From Candidatus Methylacidiphilales bacterium (GTDB lineage: Bacteria; Verrucomicrobiota; Verrucomicrobiia; Methylacidiphilales; JAAUTS01): DNA of 35,153 nt. Under the pieces are notes generated by a model, which did not search any database, had not been told where the DNA came from, and saw only the letters and a list, made by a program, of their open reading frames with translations. Positions 7,675 to 31,681 of this stretch are shown one piece after another (the stretch's first letter is position 1; each line of letters begins with the position of its first letter). The DNA is taken from the NCBI GenBank assembly GCA_028713655.1, contig JAQTNW010000037.1, forward strand, positions 1 through 35,153, in the 5' to 3' direction. A program made the translations under genes and the position numbers.

Positions 7675-7703
7675 TTGCTTCCTGCGGCGCTTGATCTTAT
7701 GTT
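7675..7703 (+). promoter_or_regulatory. Weak sigma70-like promoter candidate for the cimA leader
   Basis: TTGCTT (7675-7680) and TATGTT (7698-7703) are separated by 17 nt, matching -35 and -10 consensus at 3/6 and 4/6 positions. Initiation would fall near 7710, next to the leader ATG. Weak evidence; offered because some promoter is needed here. Confidence 0.25.
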
Positions 7704-7710
7704 ATGCGTC

Positions 7711-7803
7711 ATGAGAGCAACCTTACAGTCCGGCGCTGCCCAGCCCTTCCAGGCCGGCGCCACGCTCTCGATTTCCATTATTATTGCGATTCAAACCGCC
7801 TGA
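7711..7803 (+). CDS. Isoleucine-rich leader peptide of cimA (attenuation peptide)
   Basis: A 30-codon frame from ATG 7711 to TGA 7801-7803. Residues 21-27 read I-S-I-I-I-A-I, so five of seven codons are ATT (Ile). It lies 79 nt upstream of the citramalate synthase gene, whose product commits carbon to isoleucine. The stop codon falls in the loop of a hairpin (7792-7813) that competes with a T-tailed hairpin (7807-7841). This is the arrangement seen in amino-acid biosynthetic leaders such as ilvL, thrL and trpL. An in-frame ATG at 7699 could extend it by four residues. No strong Shine-Dalgarno is visible before either ATG, which is the main weakness. Confidence 0.6.
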   Translation: MRATLQSGAAQPFQAGATLSISIIIAIQTA

Positions 7804-7841
7804 CAGGCGTTTGACCTTCGTGCAGCCTGCCAAACGCTTTT
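7792..7841 (+). promoter_or_regulatory. Transcription attenuator with antiterminator/terminator pair upstream of cimA
   Basis: Segment 2 (7792-7800, caaaccgcc) can pair with segment 3 (7806-7813, ggcgtttg): 8 bp with one bulged C around a TGACA loop. Segment 3 (gcgtttg, 7807-7813) can instead pair perfectly over 7 bp with segment 4 (caaacgc, 7831-7837), which is followed by TTTT and A. Segments 2 and 4 therefore compete for segment 3, giving an antiterminator and an intrinsic-terminator-like hairpin. The leader stop codon (7801-7803) lies immediately after segment 2. A ribosome completing the leader would mask segment 2 and favour the terminator, while stalling at the Ile codons (7771-7791) would leave segment 2 free. 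The T run is short and the terminator loop is 17 nt, so efficiency is uncertain. Confidence 0.6.
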
Positions 7842-7881
7842 ATCACAGGATGAGCACTAATTTTCAGTACCCTTAAAAAAC

Positions 7882-9459
7882 ATGAAACAACCTCCAGTCA
7901 CCATCTACGACACGACCCTGCGGGACGGTTCCCAGGGAGAGGGCATTAACTTTTCCCTGGCCGACAAACTCAGGCTGGCGGAGCGCTTGTGCGCGTTCGG
8001 CGTCCATTATATCGAGGGCGGCTGGCCCGGATCGAACGAAAAGGACATCGCCTTTTTCTCCGAAGCCTCGCGCAAAAATTGGGGCGCCACAAAAATCGCG
8101 GCCTTCGGAAGCACCCGCAAAGCCGGTGTCGCGGTTGAGCAGGACCCGCAGGTACGCATGTTGTTGGATGCCGAAACGCCCGTCGTGACTTTTTTTGGAA
8201 AGTCATGGCTGTTGCATGTTGAAAAAGTCCTCCGCACCACGGCGGAAGAAAATCTGCGCATGATCTTTGACACCGTCGCGCACCTCAAAAAGCACGGGCG
8301 CGAGGTGATCTACGATGCCGAGCATTTTTTCGACGGCTATAAAGCCGACCCGGCCTATGCCCTGAAAACTCTTCAAGCAGCCCAGGACGCCGGCGCAGAA
8401 TACCTCGTGCTGTGCGACACCAACGGCGGCAGCCTGCCCGGGGAAGTGCGTGAAATCACAAAAACCGTCGCTGAGAAAGTGAAAGCAAAGCTGGGTATCC
8501 ACACGCATAATGACTGCGGGTTGGGAGTGGCCAACGCACTGGCTGCCGTTGAAAACGGCGCCTTGCAGGTCCAAGGCACCATGAACGGGTTCGGCGAACG
8601 CACCGGGAACTGCAACCTGACAACCGTCATCCCGTTGTTGGAGCTAAAAATGGGCCTGCCCGCTCTGCCACAGGGGCATCTGCGCCAGTTGTGCGAGGTT
8701 TCGCGCTTTGTGGACGAAATCGCCAACCTGCACCACGACAGCCGGGCGCCGTTTGTCGGGCTTTCCTCCTTCGCTCACAAGGGCGGGATGCATGTCAATG
8801 CGGTGAATAAAACCGACGTCAGTTACGAGCATATCGAGCCCAGGCTTGTGGGCAACCGGCAGCGCATCCTGGTCGGCGAATTGTCCGGCCGCACCAACGT
8901 CATGCTGAAAGCCCGCGAGCTCGGGCTTCATCTGGAGGAAAAAGACCCCGCCACCCGGAAAATCCTGGATCGGATCAAGACCCTGGAAATGGAAGGGTAT
9001 GAATTTGAAGCGGCAGACGCTTCGTTTGAACTGCTGGTCCGAAAGGCCTTAAAGCCGCACAAGCCCTTCTTTGAACTGGAGGAATACCACACCACCATCC
9101 GCAAAAACATGGCGCATGACTTCAGCACCTGCGAAGCCACGTTGAGAATCCGCATCCAGGGGAACCTCGTGCATACGGTCGCCGAGGGGGATGGGCCCAT
9201 CAATGCGCTCGATCAATCCTTCCGCAGCGCTCTGATGCAACACTATCCCCAAATCGCCCGCGTCTCACTCATCGATTACAAGGTGCGCATCCTCAACACG
9301 GGATCCGGCACGGCTGCGCGCACGCGCGTGCTGATTGAATCGTCCGACGGCCACCATGAATGGGGAACCGTCGGGGTGTCCGACAACGTGATTGAAGCGA
9401 GCTGGCTGGCCCTGTCAGACAGCGTGGAATACTATCTCTTGAAACAACAGGAAAACTGA
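7882..9459 (+). CDS. cimA: (R)-citramalate synthase
   Basis: A 525-residue enzyme of the isopropylmalate/homocitrate/citramalate synthase family. It condenses acetyl-CoA with pyruvate to give citramalate, the threonine-independent entry to isoleucine. The catalytic TIM barrel shows IYDTTLRDGSQGEGINF (8-24) with the family RDG motif, the metal-binding HTHNDCGLG (about 206-214), and NGFGERTGNCNL. A linker with SSFAHKGGMHVNAV follows, then a C-terminal LeuA-type allosteric domain (about 390-520) ending in VSDNVIEASWLAL. Length and the N-terminal 'IYDTTLRDG' separate it from 2-isopropylmalate synthase and match the cimA/AksA-like type described in Leptospira and Geobacter relatives. Regulation by isoleucine is suggested twice over: by the C-terminal domain (family knowledge) and by the upstream attenuator (sequence). 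Confidence 0.92.
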   Translation: MKQPPVTIYDTTLRDGSQGEGINFSLADKLRLAERLCAFGVHYIEGGWPGSNEKDIAFFSEASRKNWGATKIAAFGSTRKAGVAVEQDPQVRMLLDAETPVVTFFGKSWLLHVEKVLRTTAEENLRMIFDTVAHLKKHGREVIYDAEHFFDGYKADPAYALKTLQAAQDAGAEYLVLCDTNGGSLPGEVREITKTVAEKVKAKLGIHTHNDCGLGVANALAAVENGALQVQGTMNGFGERTGNCNLTTVIPLLELKMGLPALPQGHLRQLCEVSRFVDEIANLHHDSRAPFVGLSSFAHKGGMHVNAVNKTDVSYEHIEPRLVGNRQRILVGELSGRTNVMLKARELGLHLEEKDPATRKILDRIKTLEMEGYEFEAADASFELLVRKALKPHKPFFELEEYHTTIRKNMAHDFSTCEATLRIRIQGNLVHTVAEGDGPINALDQSFRSALMQHYPQIARVSLIDYKVRILNTGSGTAARTRVLIESSDGHHEWGTVGVSDNVIEASWLALSDSVEYYLLKQQEN

Positions 9460-31606: not shown

Positions 31607-31681
31607 TGGTGCAGCCTAGTGGGTTCGAACCACTGACCTCCTGCGTGTGAAGCAGGCGCTCTACCACTAAGCTAAGGCTGC
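31607..31681 (-). tRNA. tRNA-Val (anticodon CAC)
   Basis: Read on the minus strand. The acceptor stem gcagcct (31681-31675) pairs perfectly with aggctgc (31617-31611). A D-arm with agcttagtggtagagc follows, then anticodon stem cctgc/gcagg around loop ttcacac (anticodon CAC). The T-arm loop is ttcgaac (ggttcgaaccc). Discriminator A, then an encoded CCA (31609-31607). 75 nt with CCA and no long variable arm. The genome-encoded CCA and perfect stems indicate a functional gene. Confidence 0.95.

Follow-up and report, generated by a model that had tools for sequence, protein, structure and literature searches.

A probable isoleucine-responsive leader-peptide attenuator upstream of the citramalate synthase gene in Verrucomicrobiota

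The citramalate synthase gene, cimA, of a Candidatus Methylacidiphilales bacterium (genome 3.29 Mb, 95% complete) is preceded by a short, isoleucine-rich reading frame and two competing hairpins, raising the question of whether the gene is controlled through translation of a leader peptide. The locus lies in a stretch of 35,153 nucleotides, the whole of which is referred to here as the window, and its features are collected in Table I. The initial annotation of this DNA had read the region as a ribosome-mediated transcription attenuator. The 30-codon frame from which that reading started is present, with a C-terminal end of I-S-I-I-I-A-I-Q-T-A before the stop codon, and the gene 78 nt downstream is indeed a citramalate synthase, with named matches mostly from Verrucomicrobia. 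Five of the last 10 codons specify Ile, in every case as ATT (at 7771, 7777, 7780, 7783, and 7789), and these lie 10, 8, 7, 6, and 4 codons ahead of the stop. A known Rfam class was ruled out, as neither the window leader nor eight relatives match any covariance model (leaders, riboswitches, T-boxes) at the gathering threshold. The sole Rfam match in the window is a tRNA gene (31610–31681, minus strand; 72.3 bits). The peptide as a whole shows no sign of purifying selection, as is usual for leader peptides, and selection thus lends translation of the frame no separate support.

Table I. Features of the cimA leader region in the window
Feature	Coordinates	Strand	Basis and remarks
Putative -35 element, TTGCTT	7675..7680	+	17 nt upstream of the -10 element; TTGACA or TTGCCA at the same place in relatives
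Putative -10 element, TATGTT	7698..7703	+	Ends 7 nt ahead of the leader ATG
Leader peptide ORF, MRATLQSGAAQPFQAGATLSISIIIAIQTA and stop	7711..7803	+	Sequence (ATG at 7711, TGA at 7801-7803); Ile-rich frames upstream of cimA in relatives
Control region, five Ile codons	7771..7791	+	Sequence; comparable Ile-to-stop spacing in f34 and f33
Hairpin A, putative antiterminator (segments 2:3), over leader stop codon	7791..7814	+	-11.3 kcal/mol; position matches conserved f34 antiterminator
Hairpin B, segments 3:4 and a following TTTT (putative weak intrinsic terminator)	7805..7841	+	-9.6 kcal/mol; excludes hairpin A
cimA, citramalate synthase, proposed regulated gene	7882..9459	+	TIGR00977, 756 bits against a cut-off of 450

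The lack of a strong ribosome binding site had been noted as a weak point of the attenuator reading. No Shine-Dalgarno site is seen for the leader in the window, and leaderless initiation probably explains this. The putative sigma70-like promoter ends 7 nt from the leader start in the window, and 4–11 nt from it in most relatives, from which window transcription is predicted to begin at about 7710–7711, with the leader frame leaderless. A Shine-Dalgarno-driven leader was rejected on this ground, the promoter position making leaderless initiation likelier. TTGACA-like sites end 4–10 nt upstream of the start in f1, f9, L052, and other leaders (families are labels of the search tool, the window species belonging to f1), and TTGCCA-like sites end 7–11 nt upstream in most f33 leaders; promoters in f34 are less clear, being weak or unrecognized in several loci. 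The promoter score averages 7.4 over 18 leaders against 4.6 at background positions, with low scores in that narrow scan range for some members (e.g., L041 and L048). When the offset was scanned, the top mean fell at +9 and the second at +1, the former being favored because the −10 hexamer there overlaps the fixed ATG.

Enrichment was assessed in 154 cimA upstream regions (the relatives being non-independent) against 2.0 Mb of background, counting frames with a promoter-like site 5–11 nt upstream of the start codon and at least three Ile codons among the final 12. At a promoter score of at least 8, seven such frames are observed and about 0.29 expected; at a score of at least 7, there are 13 against about 1.1, an approximately 12-fold enrichment that increases at higher scores and is uncorrected for relatedness. 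The promoter of the window leader scores only 7. In its context, the leader frame well exceeds chance expectation. Three loci that have no leader (L006, L009, and L011) carry promoter-like sites immediately upstream of the cimA start codon, and leaderless mRNAs may be common in the group.

The competing hairpins described in the initial annotation were recovered at the same places. Hairpin A pairs 7791–7801 with 7805–7814, and hairpin B pairs 7805–7813 with 7831–7839, directly followed by TTTT; as 7805–7813 is common to both, the two are mutually exclusive, and their energies are similar. A second reservation, the short U tract, holds: the window has TTTT and no strong tract, and a standard terminator scan gives no match at its leader. 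The fold of 7785–7845 is unexceptional relative to shuffled sequences (z = −1.1; 28 of 200 shuffles equally good). Given this weak terminator and unremarkable fold, the case rests on the relatives and not on the window alone.

Roughly 80 related genomes of Verrucomicrobiota have comparable devices upstream of cimA, some with textbook terminators. Ile-rich leader frames precede the gene in five families (f1, f5, f9, f33, and f34), and conserved Ile codons and alternative pairing, which the initial annotation had proposed as the check to make in relatives, are both present, so that its reading gains support from the frames of five families and from the f34 helices with their U tract.

The anatomy is clearest in f34. 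The scan of this family gave 33 loci, of which L373 is without an anchor and L350 and L351 are shortened by the contig end; in the latter two the terminator is present and the stop motif is absent from the short remaining upstream sequence. The other 30 loci, whose upstream sequence is complete, all combine a stop-overlapping motif, TGA[AG]CG, with a downstream intrinsic terminator. Each of them has at least one Ile codon among the final 16 of its frame (two or more in 26; a single one near the frame end in L349, L362, L368, and L371). The Ile codon nearest to the stop is 3–12, mostly 7–8, codons away. Loci L168, L187, and L190 come from genomes already represented by L346, L352, and L359 and were counted once, and L353, L361, L363, and L364 are near-identical, alignment A2 comprising 27 distinct sequences. 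The stop codon lies inside GCTGAACGAGTTTT; the pairing partner of this segment, AAAAC..CGTTC, is at the same time the 5′ arm of the terminator. In this antiterminator 95.1% of alignment cells are paired, against 34–67% when slid, and its covariation is reached by 8 of 500 shuffles; the helix varies little, just one pair having changes on both sides. The terminator (AAAACCCCGTTCCG/CGGAACGGGGTTTT), which is followed by T-rich sequence, has 97.4% of cells paired against 33–69% when slid, and covariation reached by none of 500 shuffles; it has a U tract, and its folding energy ranges from −17 to −28 kcal/mol. Segment 2 begins in the stop codon, a geometry that fits masking of the segment by a ribosome that has reached the stop and its exposure when the ribosome stalls at the Ile codons. 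Judged by its sequence anatomy, f34 is a textbook case of ribosome-mediated attenuation, with the segment order of the window (CAAACCGCCTG across the stop, AGGCGTTTG, and CAAACGC-TTTT). A separate segment 1 was not identified in f34 or the window, and the f34 terminator was not found in named contigs with matches to the window cimA.

Leaders of the other families are more varied. In the family of the window species, L005 encodes MRALSNRKNFPCDPFGSALSISISIIINA, keeping ISISIIINA, and L007 encodes MRLREASLVLSTVYSVVESRLITIP, each followed by a stop, while L006, L008, and L009 have cimA without a leader. The f5 leader L013 ends in VGLSIIITA, and f9 leaders end in IVIRIS or SVPVVII. Sampling of the class yielded further leaders. 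A U-tract terminator was not found in L005 or L013; at the leader stop both have a strong hairpin that lacks a U tract, as does the f9 g13 group. When three f9 sequences were masked in silico up to a stalled ribosome, the stop hairpin was lost in all, and a downstream helix was retained or formed in two.

In f33, which includes one locus named Prosthecobacter, 47 loci have a leader, mostly of the form I-R-I-x-x-G-L-x-x-A, with a conserved Ile codon eight before the stop in 42 of 47 and a CGA-ATT-to-stop spacing of nine codons. A hairpin follows the Ile codons, its 5′ arm lying inside the leader frame, and some members have a second, U-tailed hairpin. The first is 83.6% paired against 30–46% when slid, with seven pairs changed on both sides, a number equaled by 2 of 500 shuffles; pairing was counted on a hand-stated structure, which leans the figures towards that structure. 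When the f33 alignment was folded automatically, the consensus had three pairs only, probably owing to differing downstream lengths. Sequence comparison establishes the frame and its control codons, the position of the promoter in most leaders, and both alternative helices of f34. A further leader, in L052, ends in NIISIIIINLS, and between it and cimA lie a very long hairpin and then TTTTTT; the record is named Staskawiczbacteria, a name that may be wrong given the similarity of its cimA. Ile-rich TTG frames in f8 (L121 and L124) were set aside, as their promoter is weak and structural support is absent.

It is likely that the region is a ribosome-mediated, isoleucine-responsive transcription attenuator of cimA, and we infer that stalling and termination both operate in the window species. 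Transcription would begin at or beside the leader ATG and, judging from the promoter position, ribosomes would load directly onto the 5′ end, with no Shine-Dalgarno site involved. With charged Ile-tRNA scarce, the ribosome would stall at the first Ile codons, about 8–10 codons ahead of the stop, leaving the stop-overlapping segment free to pair with segment 3 as the antiterminator, and RNA polymerase would continue into cimA. With Ile plentiful, a ribosome at the stop codon would cover the stop-overlapping segment, segments 3 and 4 would pair as the terminator, and transcription would end ahead of cimA.

Footprint geometry places a complication at the last of these steps. A ribosome at the window stop codon extends to about 7813, covering segment 3 besides segment 2, so the terminator would be possible only after release, in competition between hairpin A (−11.3 kcal/mol) and hairpin B (−9.6 kcal/mol), and the case for termination is less clear-cut for the window species than for f34. 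The same leader and Ile sensing might act in the window species through Rho-dependent termination or control of cimA translation rather than an intrinsic terminator, as the weak window terminator and the U-tract-free stop hairpins of L005, L013, and the f9 g13 group would allow; this is rather unlikely, given the U-tract terminators of f34, part of f33, L052, and the ilvB leader described below, and the TTTT directly after hairpin B. It is also quite improbable that the device is real elsewhere and that the window copy is a decayed remnant, with cimA now constitutive from the promoter at 7675–7703. Some f1 genomes have no leader, which, like the weak terminator and unremarkable fold, would suit such decay, but the window keeps all five Ile codons, an uninterrupted frame, the promoter in its place, and the exclusive hairpins, and L005 of the same family keeps the Ile-rich end. 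That the frame is merely a chance run of Ile codons in non-coding DNA, as the non-significant window fold taken alone might suggest, is very hard to credit and is already contradicted by the comparative sequence data, namely the enrichment over background and the conservation in many genomes of several families.

No threonine deaminase exceeds the cut-off in the window genome with the one ilvA model used (95% completeness applying here also), and citramalate may be its only route to 2-oxobutyrate and isoleucine; if so, this would explain control at cimA. The data suggest attenuation at the committed step of the citramalate-based isoleucine pathway.

The ilvGMEDA and trp-type leaders of Escherichia coli are ribosome-mediated attenuators. 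The present leaders share with them a short frame with control codons for the pathway product, mutually exclusive RNA segments, a stop codon beside or in segment 2, and a terminator upstream of the structural gene (clear in f34); they differ in the cimA target, in Ile (in some relatives Ile/Val) control codons, in being probably leaderless, and in that f34 and the window have no identified segment 1. The E. coli systems have been modeled (PMC1183508). In Corynebacterium glutamicum ilvBNC, the leader-peptide ATG lies one nucleotide from the transcription start, and the attenuator comprises terminator, antiterminator, and anti-antiterminator hairpins (PMC11857589); a branched-chain amino-acid leader peptide and a start near the ATG, here predicted, are common to both, whereas phylum and gene differ and no Rfam family matches the present leaders. 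The attenuator RNA of Sinorhizobium meliloti trpL (rnTrpL) likewise has its 5′ end at the leader-peptide ATG, as predicted here from the promoter, but there the control is by Trp at trpE(G), and trans functions are reported (PMC7298713). Ribosome-mediated attenuation itself has long been described, and leader peptides with leaderless initiation have precedents (PMC11857589, PMC7298713). A 2010 survey listed leader-peptide systems for Proteobacteria and Actinobacteria only, and newly added Firmicutes (PMC2965389). In partial coverage of the literature, no report of leader-peptide attenuation in Verrucomicrobiota or of such control at cimA was found. Provisionally, then, the type of control is familiar and the phylum is one for which no description was found. 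The data suggest that leader-peptide attenuation, apparently leaderless or near-leaderless, is widespread in Verrucomicrobiota. Some f33 loci appear, from the record name Prosthecobacter, to belong to genera that have cultured species, which would make this directly testable.

The f33 leaders have one further peculiarity. All 47 carry the codons CGA-ATT, while cimA of the same genomes has a strong codon bias, CGA accounting for 2.4% of its Arg codons and ATT for 10.5% of those for Ile. The heptamer CGAATTA is invariant in the 46-sequence f33 alignment and is shared by several f9 leaders (examples are L278, L286, and L297 in f33, and L024, L028, and L033 in f9); it is absent from the window leader. 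It is tempting, if unlikely to prove right, to speculate that, besides Ile sensing, CGAATTA with its rare Arg codon gives the f33 and f9 leaders a second signal at the nucleotide level. This could be a built-in slow codon that times translation, or the motif could be bound by a regulator that recognizes DNA or RNA, and if the signal were real the leader would be a two-input attenuator of a new sort.

Upstream of trpE, ilvC, ilvD, and the other ilvB copies examined, no convincing comparable leader was found. A Val-rich leader, MNQVLVQLVTISVVVVSDSAAVELCA and stop, does lie upstream of the second ilvB of G003, a genome of the window's family (L212, minus strand, about 3424–3290). It has a TTGACA-17-TATAGT promoter and is followed by CCCACG...CGTGGGTTTTTTATT, a perfect U-tailed terminator, and by these sequence features is probably a valine attenuator.
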